From Parietichytrium sp. I65-24A (taxonomy: Eukaryota > Sar > Bigyra > Thraustochytrida > Thraustochytriidae), in the NCBI GenBank assembly GCA_012862575.1, contig BLSF01000146.1, forward strand, positions 1 through 32,201: a stretch of 32,201 bases of DNA, written 5' to 3'. The position numbers and the translations under genes were made by a program. Below, piece after piece: positions 4,898 through 32,201 of the stretch (position 1 is its first letter; each line of letters opens with the position of its first letter). The notes under the pieces were generated by a model. It was not told the origin of the DNA, did no database searches, and was given only the letters and a program-made list of their open reading frames with translations.

Positions 4898-4958
4898 AAA
4901 CCACCATTGGAATCAATCATTTGTTTTTTCAAATCAGCGGTGATTCCAATGTTGGTTT
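4898..4958. repeat. Hairpin repeat H1 (ATTGGAATCA type)
   Basis: Arms at 4898-4915 (AAACCACCATTGGAATCA) and 4941-4958 pair at 17 of 18 positions around a 25-nt loop. The arm matches H2 (9976-10037) and resembles H6 (26461-26543). It lies between the LRR gene and the SPT promoter. Confidence 0.85.
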
Positions 4959-5020
4959 CATACCATACAAAAAATCCAGTATACACAAGAAAAGCTACTA
5001 CAGATACAACTCTTGGCCTG

Positions 5021-5028
5021 TTTATAAA
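5021..5028 (+). promoter_or_regulatory. TATA box of the SPT gene
   Basis: TTTATAAA, 28 bp before the ATG at 5056. It supports this ATG over the open frame that continues upstream, which has no earlier ATG. Confidence 0.55.
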
Positions 5029-5055
5029 CCGAAGCAAAGCACAAAATCAGACGCA

Positions 5056-6807
5056 ATGACTACCATTACTTTCGATAACATCGAGTATCATCTCCCGATG
5101 ACAACTCTCGTCTATCAGTATGCCTACAATTTCGCGCGATACATTGTCACAAAGCGAGCAATTCCTACCTCACTTGATTTGTACAAAAAGTATTTCCAAC
5201 CATGGTGCATTCAACGAGCTTTTCATCGCACTATATTTGGTCGAATCTCTAAGACCATTTGGATTGCTGATGATGAATACAAAGTTGCACGGAAGTGCAT
5301 CAACTTTGGTTCGTATGATTACCTTGGCCTCACATCGGATACAATGCCAGCGTACAATCCTCAAGATGAAAAAATGAATTCTATCGATGATGTGTACGAG
5401 AAAGCGGTTGAGATTATCAAGCACCAAACAAGGAAACCCAATGTTGTCTTCTGTAGGACGGGTTACGAAACAAACACGATGGCGCTGGACATGATGATAG
5501 AGAGTGAAACTCGCGAGTACGAACAAGTGGTTGTCTATTCGGATTACCGCAACCACAATTCTATCATCAACGGGATTAAACAACAGCAACAAGAAAGGTC
5601 AAATTTGACGGTGAAGAAGTTTGAGTCATTTGATGAGTTGGAGTATTCCATCCACGATCGGGTGAAGAATGACAGTACTGGTAATATGGTAATCTGGATT
5701 ATTGTGGAAGGGCTGTACAGTGTACATGGCGAGATTGTCGACCTTGCGAGGTTGATCAGATTAAAGCAAAAGTATAGCATGATCAAGCTTTATGTCGATG
5801 TGGCTCACTCATTTGGGTCATTGGGATCGAATTTTTGTGGCGGTGACGTTCAACATGTCGACATTATAACGGGAACATTTTCCAAGTCATTCAATGCATT
5901 TGGTGGATACATCGCATCCTCTTCGAATGTCAGACTTGAAAGCTGTGGCACAACTTCATTGGACCCACATACCGTTGGGTCTATTTATCACGGTTTGGAT
6001 GTTGCCTTCAATAGGCATCCTGAGCGAATTGACTACCTCCGTGAGCTGTCAGAGTATGCTTTCGATACTTTCAAAGAATGCACCCATTTTGACTTAGCAC
6101 GAACGTCTAGAGGCTCACCAATGATCTGTATCGAGATCGAAAGTGTTCCAAAGGCACTCAGAATGTCCGAGTTGCTCTTCCGTAACTATCACATTGCCAT
6201 CACTCTTGTCGGGTATCCGGCATGTTCAACATTGACAGGGATGGTAATTCGGATCTGCCTTAGTGCTGCGCACACCAAAGATGACGTGGACTCGTTGATC
6301 CAGGCACTGAACGACCCCATCATGAACAACAAAGAGTACTGGTCTGGAAAGAGTCATGTTGTCACCCGGCCATTGAAAGACGTCCAAGCGGAGGAAATCA
6401 AGTTTCTTTCGTCTAGTCCATCAAAGGTCGAGCTGATTAACTATTACGGCACTGGAGTGAATGGGCCCCGCTTCTTTCTCGGTAACACATTTGCAATCCA
6501 GTACTTGGAGGAAACCTTACGAAAAGAATACAACTGTCGTAATGGCATGATCATGATGTCCTATGACCAGGGTCTCAGGTCGTTGCAATCAAAACTCGCA
6601 AGGAACAAAAGCATTGATGAATTTCTTGTGCGCCCAATAGGAAATGACCATTCAAGTATCTTCATTGGTAGTACTGCAAATAGTCGGTGGTCAGAGCAAG
6701 TATTGTCAACTCCGATTGCGTTCGATAACTACGTATTCACCGCTACACTTCCAATTTACATGTTTGCTGATCACCTTGCCAAAAACACCCGGCAATCAAA
6801 ATTATAA
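5056..6807 (+). CDS. Single-chain serine palmitoyltransferase-like protein (LCB2-LCB1 fusion)
   Basis: 583 aa. SPT condenses serine with an acyl-CoA to 3-ketodihydrosphingosine in the ER. Residues about 1-440 resemble LCB2: INFGSYDYLGL (about 82-92), NHNSI with the PLP-stacking His (about 167), VEGLYSVHG, DVAHSFG with the PLP-pyridine Asp (about 248), and GTFSKSFNAFGGY with the Schiff-base Lys (about 277). The usual LCB2 segment between NYLG and the glycine-rich loop (YGVG..STR..GT) is missing. From about residue 450 a second aminotransferase-like piece begins with YYGTGVNGPRFFLGN. It has the GPR signature of LCB1 rather than the STR of LCB2, and ends with an LCB1-like NYVFTATLP. Most of the LCB1 core is deleted. 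Single-chain LCB2-LCB1 SPTs are known from coccolithoviruses. KDSR follows 53 bp downstream. Confidence 0.85.
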   Translation: MTTITFDNIEYHLPMTTLVYQYAYNFARYIVTKRAIPTSLDLYKKYFQPWCIQRAFHRTIFGRISKTIWIADDEYKVARKCINFGSYDYLGLTSDTMPAYNPQDEKMNSIDDVYEKAVEIIKHQTRKPNVVFCRTGYETNTMALDMMIESETREYEQVVVYSDYRNHNSIINGIKQQQQERSNLTVKKFESFDELEYSIHDRVKNDSTGNMVIWIIVEGLYSVHGEIVDLARLIRLKQKYSMIKLYVDVAHSFGSLGSNFCGGDVQHVDIITGTFSKSFNAFGGYIASSSNVRLESCGTTSLDPHTVGSIYHGLDVAFNRHPERIDYLRELSEYAFDTFKECTHFDLARTSRGSPMICIEIESVPKALRMSELLFRNYHIAITLVGYPACSTLTGMVIRICLSAAHTKDDVDSLIQALNDPIMNNKEYWSGKSHVVTRPLKDVQAEEIKFLSSSPSKVELINYYGTGVNGPRFFLGNTFAIQYLEETLRKEYNCRNGMIMMSYDQGLRSLQSKLARNKSIDEFLVRPIGNDHSSIFIGSTANSRWSEQVLSTPIAFDNYVFTATLPIYMFADHLAKNTRQSKL

Positions 6808-6860
6808 AGATAAAAAATTTAATTGATTCTATTTTTCCATCATTCCAGAAATAGAGACCA

Positions 6861-7826
6861 ATGGCAGGTACAACTCCCTCTCTCGTACTTTTAGGAGCGG
6901 CAGCAGCAACAGCAGCAGTAGCAGCAGGGCGTTGGTATCAATCGTTTCAACCCAAGCTTCAATTGTACGACGGAAAGCATGTCATTATTACGGGAGGTTC
7001 ACAGGGGCTTGGAAAAGCTGTTGCGAAGAAACTTTGCTCGTTTGGAGCGCATGTGACAATAATTGCGCGTACAGAGAAAACTTTATCAGAAGCTGTTCAA
7101 GAAATTTCCGTCGGTGCACCGGGAAAGATACAATATGTAGTTTCCGACGTGACAGATATTGAAAAGATGAAGAATGCAATCAAGATTGCTGAAGACCGAT
7201 TTGGTCCGGTTTACTCGATGTTCCTTTCAGCAGGAGCCGCGCATCCAGGATACTTTACATCCCATGACATTGCTGATTTCACACGAGCCATGGAACAAAA
7301 TTATATGGGGGCTGTCATTAGTGCAAAAATTGGGGTGGAAAATATGATCCGAAATGATACCAAAGGAGAAATAGTGTTTATCACATCTGCCACTGCTTGT
7401 GCTGGATTCGTTGGGTACAGTACTTATGCGCCAACAAAAGCCGCTCTACGTTCATTTGCTGATTGTTTGAGAAATGAGCTTGTTGGAAAGGGGATTCGTG
7501 TTAGAGTGGCATATCCGCCAGACATGGACACACCTGGGTATGAAAACGAGAACAAATCTAAACCGAAGGAAACACTGGAAATCTGTCCTCCAAACGAAGT
7601 GTACAAGGTTGAGGTGGTTGCTGAAACGTTGGTGGAGAGCTGTCTGCGAGACGAGTACCACTTGAGATCTCCTGACTTGTTACAAAATCTGCTTGTTTCA
7701 TCATGTGCAGGTATCACTCCGTGTGGACGTTACGGAGTTTTGGAGATTCTTTTTTCACCTCTGATCAAATTGCTGCTGTTATTTTATCGGCATAAAATAG
7801 ATGAAATCGTAAGACGACATAATTGA
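6861..7826 (+). CDS. KDSR: 3-ketodihydrosphingosine reductase
   Basis: 321 aa, a short-chain dehydrogenase. It reduces 3-ketodihydrosphingosine, the SPT product, to dihydrosphingosine with NADPH on the ER membrane. An Ala-rich N-terminal hydrophobic segment (about 6-25) is the likely anchor. The cofactor motif TGGSQGLG is at 44-51 and the catalytic Ser176, Tyr189 and Lys193 (YAPTK) are present. The subfamily signature is clear: AYPPDMDTPGYENEN matches the YPPDTDTPGF region of KDSR/TSC10, and the C-terminus ends IDEIVRRHN. The usual NAG is SAG here. It lies 53 bp after SPT on the same strand, and its stop is 3 bp from the stop of the convergent desaturase gene. Confidence 0.93.
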   Translation: MAGTTPSLVLLGAAAATAAVAAGRWYQSFQPKLQLYDGKHVIITGGSQGLGKAVAKKLCSFGAHVTIIARTEKTLSEAVQEISVGAPGKIQYVVSDVTDIEKMKNAIKIAEDRFGPVYSMFLSAGAAHPGYFTSHDIADFTRAMEQNYMGAVISAKIGVENMIRNDTKGEIVFITSATACAGFVGYSTYAPTKAALRSFADCLRNELVGKGIRVRVAYPPDMDTPGYENENKSKPKETLEICPPNEVYKVEVVAETLVESCLRDEYHLRSPDLLQNLLVSSCAGITPCGRYGVLEILFSPLIKLLLLFYRHKIDEIVRRHN

Positions 7827-7829
7827 GAT

Positions 7830-8819
7830 TCACTTCTTGTTACATTTTCTAAAATCATCCTTCAGGAATCCATTTCGCATCCATTTGTACCAAAGCGTGA
7901 CGTAATGTGTCTTGTTCTCATGTTGATGGAAGAATTCTGGGTCTGTCTGCGTGACCTTTGGTAGATAAATCCACGGGATATTATAAAATATGTGATGCTC
8001 GTGGTGGTATCCTGTATTGAAACCAATGATGTTTTCAATCCAATGATAGGTAGAGAGAACCGGATGCTGATTAGTGTTGTTTGTCAAATCAGAATAGTGT
8101 TCCGCGATTGATTGGCCGTGCATGATGACTGCCCATCTACTTGTTGAGATGGATAAAGTCCATAGCCGGAACAGTAATGCTTTCCAATCACGCCAGACGA
8201 ATATGTAGAGTCCTAGTTGTACGAGACAAGCTAAACGTGCAGCGTACAAATCAACCCTGTTCTTTTCCTGCTTCTGCTGTTTGTTCTTATTGGCCTGAAG
8301 TTCATTTTCTTGTGAGATGATTGTGGGAAACAGAGGGATGAATAAATCGGCCAAAAAGTGCAACCACGATTTGTTATCATTTCCAAACGCAACATGTCCT
8401 AGTTTCACACATTCGCTGTCTCTGGTACTGTCGTTTAAGAATGGATGGTGAAGCCTGTTGTGTACATCCATGTATCCGAGGAATTCGCCAAATGTGAAAC
8501 AACCTGCATCGATAAGGAGAGTTGTGAAAAGTGAAAGTCGATGTCCAAGGATAAGTCCATGTGAGTTTTCGTGAATGAACGTCGTAAGCGAATAGTAAAG
8601 TGTATTCGCATTCACAAACATCAAGATAAAGTAGACCGCAAAGTTGTGTACATTTTCTGAAACCCAAAAGCTCAACCAAAACTGGAAATATGTCAGTACA
8701 AGCACGAACAAAATGGATGGGTAAAATGGCCCCTCGTAATCTTTCAAGCGGGGGTTCAGCTTGTAAAGGCGTTTGCGATGTGCAAGTAAAATTTTGTTGT
8801 CTTCAGATATACCGCTCAT
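7830..8819 (-). CDS. Sphingolipid desaturase-like membrane fatty-acid desaturase (DEGS family)
   Basis: 329 aa. The three histidine clusters of membrane di-iron desaturases are present: HENSH (83-87), HNRLHH (120-125) and HHEHH (272-276), between hydrophobic segments. The last box sits in FNTGYHHEHHIFYNIP, close to the NVGYHxEHHDFPNIP region of dihydroceramide delta-4 desaturases. The short N-terminus with LYKLNPRLKDYEGP recalls their Lipid_DES region. Likely role: introducing a double bond or hydroxyl into the long-chain base of ceramide. A basic insert (about 176-188, KNKQQKQEKNR) is unusual. The frame is open from an ATG at 8858, but the ATG at 8819 (MSGISEDNK) aligns better with the family start. 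It lies just downstream of the phosphatase gene on the same strand. Confidence 0.88.
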   Translation of the reverse strand: MSGISEDNKILLAHRKRLYKLNPRLKDYEGPFYPSILFVLVLTYFQFWLSFWVSENVHNFAVYFILMFVNANTLYYSLTTFIHENSHGLILGHRLSLFTTLLIDAGCFTFGEFLGYMDVHNRLHHPFLNDSTRDSECVKLGHVAFGNDNKSWLHFLADLFIPLFPTIISQENELQANKNKQQKQEKNRVDLYAARLACLVQLGLYIFVWRDWKALLFRLWTLSISTSRWAVIMHGQSIAEHYSDLTNNTNQHPVLSTYHWIENIIGFNTGYHHEHHIFYNIPWIYLPKVTQTDPEFFHQHENKTHYVTLWYKWMRNGFLKDDFRKCNKK

Positions 8820-8864
8820 TGTGTGTCTGCTGAAAAAATGGTCAGAAAGGAAACACATGTTTAT

Positions 8865-9875
8865 TCAAAATAATTCACATCCATGAATTCCTAGGTGATT
8901 AAAGAGAATTGTGCTCATTACAATCCACGTGGATTGAATGGAGAGCATGGTAATTTGGAATACGACGATCCAAAATGGCACAAGTCTCGAATTGAAATGT
9001 TTCTCAAGCTGCTGAGATGTGTAAAAGACCAACACGCAATACGGAATAAGCACTGACAAACCAAACAAGCAGCGCGGAATGTTGTAAATGATTTCGATAG
9101 ACTCGGTGCAGACAGTTTCGTACACGAGCTCATTGAAAGAATTCCCAGTTGATTTAAGAATGGGTACTGAAATCAGTCCACCGATTAATGTTCCAAAGAC
9201 TGGCGTGTAAACATCTTTGATGTTTCGTTTCCCGTAATCATTCTGCTGCTGCTGAACAACGGCGTACCGAACAAATTCCATCGAGTTGTACATCACAAAG
9301 CATAAGACAATTGTTGACATGATGAATTCCGAAAGGGTGGTTGTTGGGTCGAGTACCCATTCCAGTAGCTTCATCTCTTGCAAGATGAATGAAATGAGTG
9401 CACCAACCGTCCATCCAACAAGGACGTCAGAAATGTAATGCACACCCAAGTAAACTCTCGAGACCCCGACGAGAAAACATAGACTGAATGCAATAGATGT
9501 CATCGTGACGTCCCATCCATACAGCGAACAGAGGGACCAGACGATACAGGCACTTCCCTGTGAATGACCAGATGGAAATGAAAAGTCCCTTTCGGTCGTC
9601 TTACCAAGGTTTTTGATGTGGTTTGTCTCTGTGTTCCAATACGGTCGAGGTCTCATGAATGTCCATTTTAACAATCCATTCACCCACTCGCTGATGGAAA
9701 CGATAAAACAAATGTAAATTCCAATGATTGGAGTGTACAACCAGACCAACATGGGGAGAAAAATCATCACTCCAATGGTAGAAATGAGATGCTTGAAAAA
9801 CTGGGCGACTAGAGTCGCGAATGGGACGTACTTTTCAGTGACCGATTGGAACTTGTATTGGATAGTGGCTTCCAT
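8865..9875 (-). CDS. PAP2 phosphatase, likely long-chain-base-phosphate (S1P-type) phosphatase
   Basis: 336 aa, multi-pass. The motifs are KWTFMRPRP (KX6RP), FPSGHS and SRVYLGVHYISD (SRX5HX3D). The spacing and the FMRPRPYW and RDFSFPSGHSQGSAC context are typical of sphingosine-1-phosphate or dihydrosphingosine-phosphate phosphatases, which release long-chain base from its phosphate in the ER. Five to eight hydrophobic helices follow. With SPT, KDSR and the desaturase adjacent, this completes a run of four sphingolipid genes. A TATAAATA box lies 59 bp upstream and hairpin H2 about 100 bp upstream. It is paralogous to the PAP2 gene at 1525-2610, though not closely. Confidence 0.88.
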   Translation of the reverse strand: MEATIQYKFQSVTEKYVPFATLVAQFFKHLISTIGVMIFLPMLVWLYTPIIGIYICFIVSISEWVNGLLKWTFMRPRPYWNTETNHIKNLGKTTERDFSFPSGHSQGSACIVWSLCSLYGWDVTMTSIAFSLCFLVGVSRVYLGVHYISDVLVGWTVGALISFILQEMKLLEWVLDPTTTLSEFIMSTIVLCFVMYNSMEFVRYAVVQQQQNDYGKRNIKDVYTPVFGTLIGGLISVPILKSTGNSFNELVYETVCTESIEIIYNIPRCLFGLSVLIPYCVLVFYTSQQLEKHFNSRLVPFWIVVFQITMLSIQSTWIVMSTILFNHLGIHGCELF

Positions 9876-22002: not shown

Positions 22003-23760
22003 ATGCTCAACTTTGTCGAAAAATTGGCGCACAGGATTGAGAATGGTCAAGATACGGAGTTGATATGGGTGGATGAAAACCTGAAGGCGTTACGAACAAT
22101 GACGTTGCGATACATTGATGAAAAGTCCAGTAGTGTTGCTCAGATGCTACACAGCCGATTCAAGCTCAAAAAAGGCGATCGGGCTGTGATTGCATACCCA
22201 TTTGGACTTGATTTCTTAATTGGGATGATAGCATGCTTCAAGATCGGAGTAATTGCGTGTAGTGTATACCCACCCAATCTACTGAAGAACGCCAACGAGT
22301 CAGTACTCAAGTTCAACTACTTTTTAAAAGATGCAAGTGCAAAACTCGTGCTGACAACGCAATCGTTTCGTCGTTTGCTCTTTGGGATGTACCGTCTCGG
22401 TAAACTCCCTGACTTTAAGAAGCAAGAGTACAAGTGGGTGGCAACAGATAAAGACTATGGTAGTCGAATGGGTTTCTCTTGCTTGAAGCAAGGCAGTATA
22501 AATTGCCCCCTGGTGCATTTGAATGAAGAGGACATTGCGTTCATTCAATATACTTCTGGAAGTACAAAGGCTCCAAAAGGAGTGGTTATCACGCATGGTA
22601 TTCTTACAAGACACCTTTGTGTCGCGTTGGGAAACTTTGGAAACAAGGACACAGTAACTGAAGTTGGTTTCACTTGGTTACCTCAATACCATGACTATGC
22701 ACTAATAACCAATTACCTATCTGCGTTGTACAACACGAACATTCGCCTCATTGCAAGCTCTCCATTTAGCTTTATTAAGAAGCCATTAATGTTGCTTCGC
22801 GCGATCGAAAAATACAAAGTCAATTATGTGAACGGGCCAAACTTTGGATACAGTCTTCTACATAAACGCTGGATTGAGAATAACCGTCCAAGTTATGACC
22901 TTTCCTCTCTGCTACATGCAAATATCGCAGCTGAGCCCATTCGAATCGAAACAATTCATAAGATGGTATCAATGGGGATTCCATCCAGTTGCATTTTCCC
23001 GTCCTATGGAATGGCCGAAAGTGTCATTCAGATTACTGGCATGCATTTGAATCCTCACTCAGAGAAGAATGCGCAATATGATCTATTAAAGTACATTCAC
23101 AACGATGCCGTCCCATCGGGTCACATGGACGTCTTCTCATACAATGACAAGGAAATTTTGATTGCGACAAGTAATGATGATGACGGAACGCTCTGTCCAA
23201 TCACAGAGGACGAAAAAGTCGGTGAAATCTTTGTATCTGGCACTGACGTTGCAACGAGTTACTGGAACAAACCAGAAGAGACACACCATGTCTTCCAACG
23301 AAACATCTTTAATGGCAAAGCATGGATGCGCACTGGCGATCTGGGGTACAAGTACAATGATTTGCTCTACATTACCGGCAGGGCGAAAGAGTTGATTATC
23401 ATTGGTGGGAAGAACATCTACCCACAAGATGTGGAATTCGAGGTGGAACAGATTGCTGGCCCAACTAAGCTACGCCTCGGATGCACAATTGCTTTCCAGT
23501 ACAATGACGACGAGATTGGTATTGTCTGTGAGTGGAAAGAGAAGCTCAAACCATCTTCTGGTGCTAGTGCTTCTGAATTTCTATTAAATCTGAAACCCAA
23601 GCTCAATGCAGAGTACAAAATTGGTTACATAGCAATCCATGAAGCGGGATCGATCCCAAAAACTACAAGTGGTAAATTGAAGCGCACATTCGTTCGAGAC
23701 AACTTTGATTCTCTCTCCAATCGCATCGCATCGCATCGCATTGCTTTGTTGATTGATTGA
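22003..23760 (+). CDS. Fatty-acyl-AMP ligase (FAAL)-like adenylating enzyme
   Basis: 585 aa. ANL-family motifs in order: A3 YTSGSTKAPKG (about 183-193), the FAAL-typical FTWLPQYHDYALI, A5 FPSYGMAES, A7 MRTGDLGY, A8 GRAKELIIIGGKNIYPQDVE and A10 PKTTSGKLKR with the catalytic Lys. WLPQYHD and NIYPQD..E are hallmarks of FAALs, which activate fatty acids as acyl-adenylates and pass them to a carrier domain, not to CoA. The obvious acceptor is the carrier domain of the divergent 704-aa protein. Whether the characteristic FAAL insertion is present needs an alignment. The last residues after SLSNRIASHRIA are encoded by CGCAT and TTGA microsatellites. Confidence 0.88.
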   Translation: MLNFVEKLAHRIENGQDTELIWVDENLKALRTMTLRYIDEKSSSVAQMLHSRFKLKKGDRAVIAYPFGLDFLIGMIACFKIGVIACSVYPPNLLKNANESVLKFNYFLKDASAKLVLTTQSFRRLLFGMYRLGKLPDFKKQEYKWVATDKDYGSRMGFSCLKQGSINCPLVHLNEEDIAFIQYTSGSTKAPKGVVITHGILTRHLCVALGNFGNKDTVTEVGFTWLPQYHDYALITNYLSALYNTNIRLIASSPFSFIKKPLMLLRAIEKYKVNYVNGPNFGYSLLHKRWIENNRPSYDLSSLLHANIAAEPIRIETIHKMVSMGIPSSCIFPSYGMAESVIQITGMHLNPHSEKNAQYDLLKYIHNDAVPSGHMDVFSYNDKEILIATSNDDDGTLCPITEDEKVGEIFVSGTDVATSYWNKPEETHHVFQRNIFNGKAWMRTGDLGYKYNDLLYITGRAKELIIIGGKNIYPQDVEFEVEQIAGPTKLRLGCTIAFQYNDDEIGIVCEWKEKLKPSSGASASEFLLNLKPKLNAEYKIGYIAIHEAGSIPKTTSGKLKRTFVRDNFDSLSNRIASHRIALLID

Positions 23761-26460: not shown

Positions 26461-26543
26461 GAACCACTCTTAGAACCACCATTGGAACCATGACTAATCG
26501 CCACAGCAAATGATGGTTCCAAAGATGGTTCAAAGAGTGGTTC
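26461..26543. repeat. Hairpin repeat H6 (longest stem)
   Basis: Positions 26461-26491 pair with 26513-26543 at 28 of 31 positions with a 21-nt loop. The arm contains GAACCACCATTGGAACCA, close to the H1/H2 arm (AAACCACCATTGGAATCA). Confidence 0.9.
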
Positions 26544-27071: not shown

Positions 27072-30000
27072 CTAGGCCGCCACTGGCACGTTTGCCGTGT
27101 GAGCAAGCACGAGATTTAAAGTGAAGTGAGAAAGGACCAATACCAGTGAGGTCAACAGGGGTGCAGGTGAAGCTTCAAAGGCAATGACGATAATTAGAGC
27201 TCCAAAAAAAGAGAGGAAAAGCAGAGAGCCGAAGATAGACTCAACTGTAATCCCTCTCCGTTTTCTAAAGAACAAAACTCCTAAAACTGGGGCTATCGAC
27301 AGAACAACCTGAGCAATTGTAATTGTAGTCACCAAATCAATGCTGAAAGAGTCTTCATTAGCATCGCCTGAGCCGACGAACTGCTGTTCTCCACTCAGCT
27401 GGATGTTCCTTTCAAGTGTGGCTTGTATCTTGCTCCGACCCCAACTGAATGGAAAGAGATACGTAAAATGAAGTGTCAGAGAATCCGTAGCTCGCCACTA
27501 TCATTGGAAAGAGGTGCATAAGAAGAGCTGCACAATCAAAGAATGACGTACCTGTAAGAGGTATCAAGAACAGGCCACTCCAAAACGGTTTTGAAGATGC
27601 GAATGCTCAAGACGCGAACGAAGTCAACCACAAAACGCTCCTCCAGACTGCCAAACGAGATGGAAATTAGCCGGCGGTTTTCGATTAATTTGAAGAAAAA
27701 AAACGTACGGGAGAGTTATAAGCACAGTATTCTTTTCCAATGCGTCACCAATCGCAGTAATTCCTTCGCCGAAAATGCCATTGCTTCTAAGACTGAAAGC
27801 GGGCGTTAGTGTGTGTCGCAAAATCAAAATTCAAAATTTAAATGGAGACGACGGAAAGCCTCTAAAACAACACTGACGAAACAATCACGTACTCGAGATG
27901 AGTCAATGCAGCGTTCATTTCAATCGCGTGACCAATCGCTAATGCGCCTGCTTCCCCAATACCATTCACACTAAGACTAAATTCCAGGGTTGCACAACTC
28001 GAGAGTTAGTTTGATAAGTGACAGACTTGATTGAGTGCCAGGAAACTAACTCGAGATAGGTTACTGCAGAATTCGCTTCCAGTGCCCGACTTATTTCCAG
28101 TGCACCTCTACTGCCAATGAAATTGTGACCAAGACTATAATTTTCCATCATTGCACAAGTGAGTCGATAATACTCAACTCCATGGTCAGAAAGCGGGCTC
28201 ATTTCACGTACTCAAGAGAAGTAAGAACAGAATTTTTTTCCAATGCGCGACCGATCCAAAATGCACCACCATCTGAAATCATATTTCCTCCAATACTATT
28301 CCATACAATCGAAGAGTCAGAGATGATTATGCCAATTTCCAATTCACAATGCCAGTGACACCTACTCCAAAGTAATCAGCCCTGTGTTTTTTGCAAGCGC
28401 GCGACTGATTGCCGACGCTGCTCTGCCGAAGATGCGATTTCCTCTAAGACTGCTCGTTTTGGACCGCCCAAGGACAAAGTTAAAGAAAACAGTGAGCAAC
28501 TTAAAGACCTGTTGCATAGCACAAGGCATACCACAACAACGTACGAGAGACTAATCAAAGCACTGTTTTTTTCCAGCGCAAGACTGATAGCCAATGCGCC
28601 ATCGGTACTTATCACGTTGTTCTTGAAGCTAGCAATTTCAAAAATGTTACTATTAGAAGTGTCGCAAGTCAGTGGCCCCGTCAGAAATTAGAGAACTTAC
28701 CCTAGTCGGAGCGTCTTGCTTTCCATCAATTGCGTGGCGATTAATCTCGCTTCGACAAGATCCACTTCACAATCGAACCTGCGCGACATAATGAAGGCGC
28801 CGTGAGATTTATACAAACATGCTATGTCCCATTCGTAACTCACCAGACCTCGAGTACTCCTCTCGCAGCTGCCACAACTCCCTTCAAGACTGAATCCACT
28901 GTCAAATAGGACGCCTTTGCTCCGCAAACCAAGTGGTCTTCGTATTTTCCAAGATTAGAAATTGGTGCCGACTTGTGTTGATTCAACCCTACCTTCATCC
29001 CCGACAAGCGATCGATCGATAGTGCTCCTTCGGCGCCAAAATTTCTCAACGAAAGACTGATTTGCAAGACACGAGATCGTCAGCTACAAAGCACGAATCT
29101 GTTCAGCAAGAACGTGTACATTCAATCAAACCGTGTAAGGTTAGAGTCTCACGTACTCCAACTGAGCCAGCAGAATGTTCTTCTCCAATGCGCGACCGAT
29201 CGCTGATGCTACTTCATCGCCAATGTTGTTATTCCGAAGACTATTTCATCACAAGAAAGGAAAGAAATCGTCAGCCACCAAGTCCGAGAAAGTTTAGTAG
29301 GGTGCTAGAAAACCAAACCGGTGTCAAAGTCATACGTACTCCAATTTAGTCAGCGCAGTGTTCTTCTCCAACGCGCGACCGATCGCTGATGCTCCTTCAT
29401 CGCCAATTTCATTTTCTTGAAGACTTTCTCATTACAAAATGACATAAAATCGTCAGCCACCAAGTCCGAGAAAGTTTAGTAGGGTGCTAAACATTGTCAC
29501 CAAACCGGTGTCAAAGTCACACGTACTTCAACGTAGTCAGTGCAGTGTTCTTCTCCAACGCGGAACCGATCGCTGATGCTCCTTCACCGCCAATATTGTT
29601 ACCATTAAGACTATTTCATTCCAAAAAGACACGAATTCGTCAGCCACCAAGTCCGAGAAAGTTTAAACATTGTCACCAAACCGGTATCAAAGTCACACGT
29701 ACTCCAATGTAGTCAGCGCAGTGTTCTTCTCCAACGCGCGACCGATCGCTGATGCTCCTTTAGCGCCAATCTCGTTATAAGAAAGACTATTTCATTTCAA
29801 AAAGACATGAAGTCGTCAGCCACCAAGTCCGAGAAAGTTTAGTAGGGTGCTAAAAAATGTCACCAAACCGGTGTCAAAGTCACACGTACTCCAATCTAGT
29901 CAGCGCAGAGTTCTTCTCCAACGCGCGACCAATTGCTGATCCTCCTTCAGCGCCAATTTTATTACTATAAAGACTATATCGTTACAAAGAGACATGAAGT

Positions 30001-30668
30001 CGTCAGCCACTAAATCCAGGAAAATTTAGCAAAGCACTAACTTTCTCACCAAACCGGTGTCAAAGTCACACGTACTCCAATGTAGTCAGCGCAGTGTTCT
30101 TCTCCAACGCGCGACCGATCGCTGATGCTCCTTCATCGCCAACACCATTCAAACAATGACTATTTCATTACAAAAAGGCATGAAATCGTCAGCCACCAAG
30201 TCCGAGAAAGGTCAGCAAGAGACAAACCTTTCTCACCAAATCGGTGTCAAAGTCACACGTACACGCGACCGGTCTCTGTCCTATTTCATTACAGAAAGAC
30301 GTAAAAATCGTCAGCCACCAAGTCCGAGAAAGTTTGGTAGGGTACTAAAAAGTTTCGCCGAACCAGTGTCAAAGCCACGTAAAGTGACGCGGACTCCAAC
30401 GATGTCGGCAAGTAGTGCGCTTTCATGGAACCAGTGTCAAAGTCTCGCTGGAGAATGACTTACACCATGGACTCCGAGACAAAGCTGCGTGAAAGGAAAG
30501 CGCCATTAGAACCGACGTATTCCGCCTCTGAACAGTTTGATGATCACCAACTCACCACACGGCTTTTTCCCCTCGATCGATCGCCTGAAGCCCTTCGTCC
30601 AACGAGTCCACCGCCCAAAACCTCACCGTCGTGCCCGCTCCAACCTCTACCTCATTGTACCAGCCCAT
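27072..30668 (-). CDS. Multi-exon LRR membrane protein with one repeat per exon
   Basis: Exons in transcription order (plus coordinates): 30556-30668, 30464-30484, 30263-30280, 30076-30159, 29890-29973, 29703-29786, 29527-29610, 29340-29423, 29157-29240, 28844-29056, 28701-28778, 28545-28628, 28366-28449, 28212-28295, 28051-28134, 27893-27976, 27709-27792, 27552-27647, 27072-27444. All introns are GT-AG and phase 2, and the joined frame is open for 639 codons to TAG 27072-27074. Twelve exons are exactly 84 nt, each one 28-residue RNase-inhibitor/NLRC3-type LRR (LxxNxIGDEGASAIGRALEKNTALTxLD). The 213-nt exon adds a non-LRR insert. The last exon encodes three hydrophobic helices (IAQVVLSIAPVLGVLFF; a second after RKRRG; a third at the end). 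A membrane-anchored recognition protein is plausible. The first three exons and the start are the least certain; no kinase or nucleotide-binding domain is seen. Confidence 0.78.
29157..30262 (-). repeat. Six-unit tandem array of LRR exon plus intron, 176-187 bp per unit
   Basis: Exon starts recur every 183, 187, 176, 187 and 186 bp. Introns are as alike as exons: each has ACGTAC at the donor side, CACCAAACCGGTGTCAAAG, CGTCAGCCACCAAGTCCGAG and CTATTTCATT at the acceptor. The common intron sequence shows recent duplication of whole cassettes. The older exons at 27709-28628 keep the 84-nt size, but their introns have diverged. Confidence 0.93.

Positions 30669-32098: not shown

Positions 32099-32131
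<33 letters not shown>
32099..32131 (+). rRNA. 3' tip of 18S rRNA gene (fragment)
   Basis: Thirty-three bases match the conserved end of eukaryotic 18S rRNA, including the well-known TCCGTAGGTGAACCTGCGG priming site and GGATCATTA end. The preceding bases (AATCAGCCGGA) are not those of an 18S gene, which should read GTAACAAG there. Only the tip is present, so it is either a truncated rDNA unit at an array edge or a displaced fragment. Confidence 0.85.
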
Positions 32132-32201
32132 TCACACTTATTGTTTTGGTTGTTGTGTTATATTGTTTTTACTTTCAGTTTTGATATTTAGAAATAGTAA
32201 A
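32132..32201 (+). other. Probable start of ITS1
   Basis: AT-rich sequence directly after the 18S end, where ITS1 should begin. No 5.8S sequence is reached within the window, so the identity rests on position alone. Confidence 0.5.

Follow-up and report, generated by a model that had tools for sequence, protein, structure and literature searches.

A dispersed family of single-repeat LRR exons with hypervariable exposed residues and several C-terminal modules

Does the 19-exon LRR gene on the minus strand of this DNA stand alone, and what could a gene assembled from exchangeable exons be for? The window, by which we mean the whole stretch of DNA analyzed (32,201 nt), is the entire contig C146 of a 42.5-Mb assembly of 172 contigs. 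The original prediction had described 19 exons encoding 639 amino acids, with all introns in phase 2 and twelve exons of exactly 84 nt. Independent chaining of open segments bounded by AG and GT reproduced this structure in full, giving a 1,920-nt coding sequence on the minus strand (30668 to 27072) and 18 introns, all GT-AG and all phase 2. The features are listed below; "cassette" denotes a one-LRR exon, and C53 is the contig carrying the nearest paralog.

27072 to 30668, minus strand: whole modeled gene, 19 exons, 639 amino acids (exon chaining).
30556 to 30668, minus strand: exon 1, start codon and N-cap (MGWYNEVEVGAGTTVRFWAVDSLDEGLQAIDRGEKAV); tblastn found N-cap homologs (E ≤ 0.01) in 15 of the 22 other cassette stretches compared.
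30464 to 30484, minus strand: exon 2, tentative 21-nt micro-exon, placed by splice consensus and phase alone.
30263 to 30280, minus strand: exon 3, tentative 18-nt cassette remnant whose flanks resemble cassette introns.
29157 to 30159, minus strand: array A, six 84-nt LRR exons (30076-30159, 29890-29973, 29703-29786, 29527-29610, 29340-29423, 29157-29240) with homologous introns; all six units best match other loci.
28844 to 29056, minus strand: exon 10 (213 nt), degenerate cassette in frame with a second N-cap (SYLTVDSVLKGVVAAARGVLEVW); weak N-cap-like matches; the C53 copy is open and has no gaps.
28701 to 28778, minus strand: exon 11 (78 nt), divergent LRR, conserved in the C53 paralog.
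27709 to 28628, minus strand: array B, six 84-nt LRR exons (28545-28628, 28366-28449, 28212-28295, 28051-28134, 27893-27976, 27709-27792); the five scorable units have their matches in the C53 paralog, in unchanged order.
27552 to 27647, minus strand: exon 18 (96 nt), C-cap/linker, indel-free relative to C53.
27072 to 27444, minus strand: exon 19, C-terminal module with three predicted hydrophobic helices (hydropathy) and the stop codon; one further genome copy (C53).

Each of the twelve 84-nt exons, made up of 27 full codons and one split codon, corresponds to one 28-residue RI-type LRR. The profile search proposed with the original prediction matched the 639-residue product to Pfam LRR_6 (E = 9.2e-46, 8 stretches), so that the protein carries 28-residue repeats matching LRR_6, by which RI-type LRRs are recognized; its PDB sequence matches include RNase inhibitor and NLR chains. 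The frame stays open without exon 2, without exon 3, or without both micro-exons.

The recurrence of 84-nt exons exceeds chance expectation. Nonoverlapping segments of the form AG-[84 nt open in phase 2]-GT numbered 14 in the gene, compared with 3.2 ± 1.5 (maximum, 8) in 500 dinucleotide shuffles and 2 to 8 in the other 3.6-kb tiles of the window. When the LRR hydrophobic pattern was also demanded, 12 segments were found in the region, versus none in 300 dinucleotide shuffles, and the opposite strand of the gene region contained none. Chance repeats as the origin of the 84-nt exons are thus ruled out by the shuffles, and the proposed symmetric one-repeat cassettes are confirmed. The cassette introns (200 measurable in 23 stretches) are 64 to 132 nt long with no preferred length phase, and not one of the 200 keeps the frame open when retained, which rules out introns as coding spacers. 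Because intron sequence is common to neighboring cassettes of array A, the duplicated unit is the exon together with its intron.

The gene, which had been treated on its own, proved to have many relatives. Cassette searches of the genome returned at least 191 protein and at least 204 DNA matches, and when the matches listed in both searches were read by hand, they defined at least 57 cassette places on at least 41 contigs. Long intronless frames and weak rows (e.g., one each on C133 and C5) were excluded from the 57, some of which are supported by a single cassette match and one of which, on C45, has no stop between repeats; a single match on C98 may be one further place beyond the 57. Sequence was examined for 38 of the 57 listed places, as 41 stretches. 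The cassette model matched these 379 times, 350 times with an open AG...GT exon, and among those intact cassettes 319 were exactly 84 nt and 6 were 90 nt long (for the window, the count takes in the degenerate first part of exon 10, to which the gene model gives another use). All 41 stretches, and with them all 38 loci, contain two or more intact cassettes. The genome also has many other LRR_6 genes that consist of long frames without interruption, with 28 to 45% identity to the query. The window gene is one member of a dispersed family in which an N-cap exon is joined to 84-nt phase-2 LRR exons in varying number and, in those members whose end could be identified, to a C-terminal module of one of several kinds.

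At one locus (L038, C42:6500-10600), five cassettes and the region 5′ of them are repeated as a block at a distance of about 1.6 kb; three of the cassettes are nearly unchanged, and this repeat is a fresh tandem duplication. Several arrays lie within ~5 kb of a contig end (C8, C30, C45, C59, C5, C91, C21, C26, C11, and C53), which could reflect either a subtelomeric location or assembly breaks in repeats. The end of the window itself (32120 to 32201) presumably comprises the 3′ terminus of an 18S rRNA gene and the first part of ITS1, although Rfam gave no SSU match there; given this rRNA-like end, the gene may adjoin rDNA or an assembly break. Elsewhere in the window, an aminotransferase I/II frame resembling serine palmitoyltransferase, with no close named relative when used as a query, has a short-chain dehydrogenase, a fatty-acid desaturase, and PAP2 phosphatases as neighbors and an AMP-binding enzyme at a greater distance (4921 to 9875, also 1525 to 2652 and 22003 to 23760); these frames are possibly a sphingolipid gene cluster. 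The genes neighboring the LRR gene may be intronless, as judged by their long ORFs. A weak microRNA-family match at 26461 to 26543 (28.6 bits versus a gathering score of 59) is most likely due to chance.

One further copy of the last two exons of the window gene was found in the genome, on C53. That paralog has four cassettes in array A, versus six in the window gene, and six in array B. Across exons 10 to 18, the exons of the two genes show zero indels while 8 of the 9 intervening introns contain them, and this confinement of indels to introns supports the exon boundaries. Exon 19 differs by gaps of 33 nt and of 26, 1, and 7 nt and is 86% identical to the C53 copy over the aligned part. Over exons 10 to 19, dN is 0.075 and dS is 0.139, a ratio of 0.54 (Fisher P value of 0.005), with array A lying outside the test.

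These values bear on a possible pseudogene status: the window copy as a whole, or its array A by itself, could be a decaying member of a shuffling repeat family. Such decay would suit the start of the gene, with its remnants of a micro-exon and a cassette, as well as the last residues, which differ between the paralog and the window protein. In the stretches examined, 29 of the 379 cassette matches have no intact exon (they are broken, partial, or cut by the stretch end), and part of the family may thus be decaying. However, the twelve 84-nt exons are all open with AG and GT borders, and the dN/dS ratio obtained against the paralog for exons 10 to 19, the part of the gene that the test covers, argues against loss of function there. 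We consider the pseudogene explanation improbable.

The original account of the LRRs is incomplete: owing to a second N-cap-like part inside exon 10, we read the gene as a double array. Its order is N-cap, array A (six cassettes), degenerate cassette plus second N-cap, divergent LRR, array B (six cassettes), C-cap, and hydrophobic exon. To trace the arrays, cassette-plus-intron units were compared in the first 23 stretches, representing 21 loci. The best match lay at another locus for 130 of 199 units (120 of 189 without the window-C53 pairs) and within the same locus for the other 69; none of the 11 scored window units had its best match inside its own locus. Units of array A best matched loci L044, L037, and L047, and units of array B matched C53 in order. 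In these comparisons, many cassette-plus-intron units are closest to units at other loci, and the window gene joins a mosaic array A to an array B collinear with that of its paralog. The proposal that cassettes can be duplicated, deleted, or swapped agrees with array A, in both its copy number (six versus four) and its mosaic makeup, but not with the collinear array B.

The composition of exon 10 also means that the model may represent one fused gene or two adjacent genes. Under the latter explanation, a truncated gene consisting of exon 1 and array A, with no C-terminal module, would be followed by a second gene that starts at the methionine in exon 10, includes array B, and has the membrane-like end. 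A weak resemblance to N-cap exons is indeed seen in the 3′ half of exon 10 (matches in L044, L043, L021, and L046, with E values of 5e-4 to 3e-3), the methionine is kept at the equivalent place in the paralog, and array A of the paralog is followed by an exon resembling the start of a kinase-type C terminus, apparently a remnant; the differing histories of the two arrays point the same way. Against this, exon 10 is open, bounded in phase 2, 213 nt long, and gap-free in both paralogs, its halves are joined without an intervening stop, and a split would leave array A without an end of its own. Replacement and silent changes relative to C53 (4 and 0 before the methionine, 9 and 5 after) do not decide between the two. 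Two neighboring genes are a serious contender, at somewhat less than even odds.

Hydropathy of the window protein peaks between residues 548 and 633, from which three membrane helices are predicted, as in the original prediction; this hydropathy-based assignment applies to an end found in one other genome copy. Pfam finds no ROC-COR in the window protein and no NACHT or NB-ARC domain in it or in the two module types scanned. The lack of NACHT and NB-ARC rules out membership in the NLRs. The exon 19 module has no Pfam family above the cutoff; the best match, Vma12 (E = 0.072), falls below the family cutoff and was rejected as a name for the module. Since hydropathy reveals no hydrophobic stretch ahead of the LRRs in the window protein, they probably face the cytosol.

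Other arrays lead into different ends. Downstream of the array on C12, an 853-residue frame contains Roc (E = 1.5e-18), COR-A (8.8e-14), and TIR_2 (1.8e-8) domains, and a 976-residue frame downstream of an array on C140 contains a protein kinase domain (4.8e-28) and a Cys-rich tail. Among the matches listed, the genome contains at least 10 ROC-COR-TIR modules and at least 16 kinase places, some of them fragments; these lists omit lesser matches, such as generic kinases and weak ROC or TIR matches. Seven of the 10 ROC-COR-TIR modules and 9 of the 16 kinase modules (16 of 26, at 15 arrays) lie downstream of a listed array, on its strand and no more than 4.5 kb away, and the other 10 of the 26 have no listed array just upstream. 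The three-helix end occurs in the window gene and its C53 paralog, and no C-terminal end was identified for the other arrays examined. Kinase-type members also occur in tandem, with two at C140:208-9631 (93% identity) and three at C88:104930-121573. Cys/His columns are conserved in their Cys-rich tail, in a pattern that we take to be RBR-like. Assignment as an RBR ligase has no support from Pfam, PDB sequences, or a structure model (poor, pLDDT of 58), nor from Foldseek, whose best match was a RING domain with an E value of 2.0. With the ROC-COR-TIR query, all named-organism matches down to an E value of 1e-64 were from Hondaea fermentalgiana (a labyrinthulomycete), at ≤44% identity, followed by lower matches from Entophlyctis (27 to 28%), Salpingoeca, and Polarella; the best match overall was a metagenome protein with 51% identity. 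On this basis the host is probably a labyrinthulomycete-like stramenopile, a link not seen with the serine palmitoyltransferase query from the window.

Within the cassettes, variation is concentrated at a few sites. Across 318 cassettes, residue entropy was 3.4 to 3.9 bits at positions 2, 3, and 5, 2.4 to 2.9 bits at positions 8 and 26, and ≤1.6 bits elsewhere; we take these five positions to be exposed sites in the LxxLxLxxN strand and in the loop after it. Codons 2 to 5 alone formed 285 distinct 12-mers among the 318 cassettes. Change was assessed in disjoint cassette pairs in which both flanking introns are <8% diverged (n = 11, several from the same arrays), with positions 2, 3, 5, and 26 as the exposed codons. 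Nucleotide differences amounted to 42 of 132 in exposed codons, 43 of 759 in the other exon sequence, and 78 of 2,223 in introns, an approximately ninefold difference between exposed codons and introns (P = 5e-25), and 21 of the 23 changed exposed codons altered the residue. The contrast was seen with a stricter cutoff (6 pairs; exposed codons, 14 of 72; introns, 15 of 1,237) and with a looser one (15 pairs; 67 of 180 and 140 of 2,986). In the sequences compared, the exposed LRR residues are hypervariable against a background of similar scaffold residues and similar flanking introns, a pattern that recognition receptors would be expected to show.

Two observations go against a simple reading of this pattern. 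Over all cassette pairs, pN/pS at exposed codons is 0.88, below 1 but saturated. In exposed codons, the excess of change is as great at third positions as at first and second positions, which simple residue-level selection does not predict. In 13 of 25 close pairs, the variable 12-mer has a donor or sharer, a finding compatible with conversion and mutation alike. Short-tract replacement together with selection would fit these observations.

The spread of cassettes over at least 41 contigs, with frequent best matches to other loci, might also be expected of a selfish exon-intron repeat whose open frame is a mere by-product. Such a repeat does not account well for an exon length held at 84 nt in 319 of 350 cassettes although intron lengths vary, for near-invariant scaffold residues, or for the position of 16 of the 26 listed signaling modules, at 15 arrays, within 4.5 kb downstream of cassettes. 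This explanation, already disfavored, is very improbable.

Comparable designs have been described elsewhere. In the excerpted text of one report, brown-algal ROCO genes (Saccharina and Ectocarpus) consist of 72-bp phase-2 exons, each encoding one 23-residue LRR, with exon shuffling and selected concave-side sites (PMC11378527). The analogy drawn in the original prediction is apt in that other cassette arrays of this genome run into ROC-COR-TIR. Going by that text, the two families share a single LRR per phase-2 exon, shuffling, ROC-COR relatives, and a variable concave face, and the brown-algal hosts are stramenopiles, as is the host here if it is a labyrinthulomycete. They differ in unit size (84-nt, 28-residue RI-type cassettes here), and LRR-ROC-COR is given as the sole ROCO architecture of brown algae, whereas cassettes here precede ROC-COR-TIR, kinase, and three-helix ends. 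ROC-COR in the same protein is absent from the window protein but present in the C12 relative. The window gene resembles the brown-algal ROCO set but, by its exon length and lack of ROC-COR, is outside that set as defined.

In Tetrahymena, according to the portion of the source available, arrays of 90-bp phase-2 LRR exons occur in thousands of genes and are associated with LINE-like elements, and the authors suggest that this gene category arose only once, in Tetrahymena (PMC6564038). Fixed-length phase-2 LRR exons, variable copy number, and ectopic recombination among dispersed loci are likenesses, as far as that portion goes; unlike there, 90 nt is the length of only 6 of 350 intact cassettes here. 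Human NOD and NLRC genes mostly have one 28-residue LRR per exon, as stated in the part of PMC6642158 cited here. The RI-type LRR and single repeat per exon are shared with these vertebrate genes as so described, but they are NACHT receptors, unlike the window protein and the two scanned modules. Closer in lineage, H. fermentalgiana has ROC-COR-TIR and LRR-ROC-COR-TIR proteins with the same module order as here and repeats (LxxNxIGDxGAKALADALAKNSSLQTL, with a variable xx-N-x) of the same type as the cassettes; at ≤44% identity to the query, this is a likeness at the protein level. In Pfam annotation, ROC-COR-TIR is also paired with WD40 repeats in Hondaea (P0160, P0161, P0163, P0166, and P0169), which suggests that sensors may have been swapped within the broader lineage.

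Taken together, we favor, with a probability of about 0.62, an exon-shuffled, cytosol-facing recognition family of which the window gene is a member with a mosaic array A and a collinear array B. Ectopic recombination in homologous introns would allow cassettes to be gained, lost, and swapped with the frame intact, and diversifying selection, possibly helped by short-tract conversion, would vary the concave contact surface. The family proteins would act as intracellular recognition receptors, with ROC-COR-TIR and kinase members signaling; the window protein would be a membrane-anchored, cytosol-facing LRR member with no recognized signaling domain. We infer an immune role for the family.

Hypervariable LRR surfaces and copy-number variation would suit any recognition task, and the sequence indicates no ligand, so the family might instead recognize self and non-self, prey or surface partners, or cell-cell contact. 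ROC-COR-TIR and kinase ends, as found in some members, are common in cytosolic defence receptors, and this, together with the missing hydrophobic stretch ahead of the window protein's LRRs, makes recognition of something besides pathogens rather unlikely, though to be kept in view. Returning to the favored recognition family, a bolder form of it, which we regard as improbable, is a single-celled eukaryote with an anticipatory repertoire, in which a few contact codons of interchangeable LRR exons undergo short-tract replacement at a higher rate than the flanking introns change, by directed conversion or mutation and not selection alone, and are joined to alternative cytosolic signaling ends.

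In the literature searched, which covered few subscription journals, we found no description of a labyrinthulomycete cassette-LRR family, and the main text of a comparative thraustochytrid genome paper contains no mention of leucine, LRR, ROCO, TIR, or immun- (PMC12258536). The family is a variant of exon-shuffled LRR recognition families, distinct by its 84-nt unit and its several ends. It places the one-LRR-per-exon design, with a unit of its own, in what is probably a labyrinthulomycete, where alternative ends draw on one cassette pool and variability falls on the contact face, and it is possibly an actively diversifying recognition repertoire. Such organisms grow as single cells, and if clones differed in their cassette number or contact codons, or if either changed on viral challenge, this would bear on how a protist can diversify recognition.
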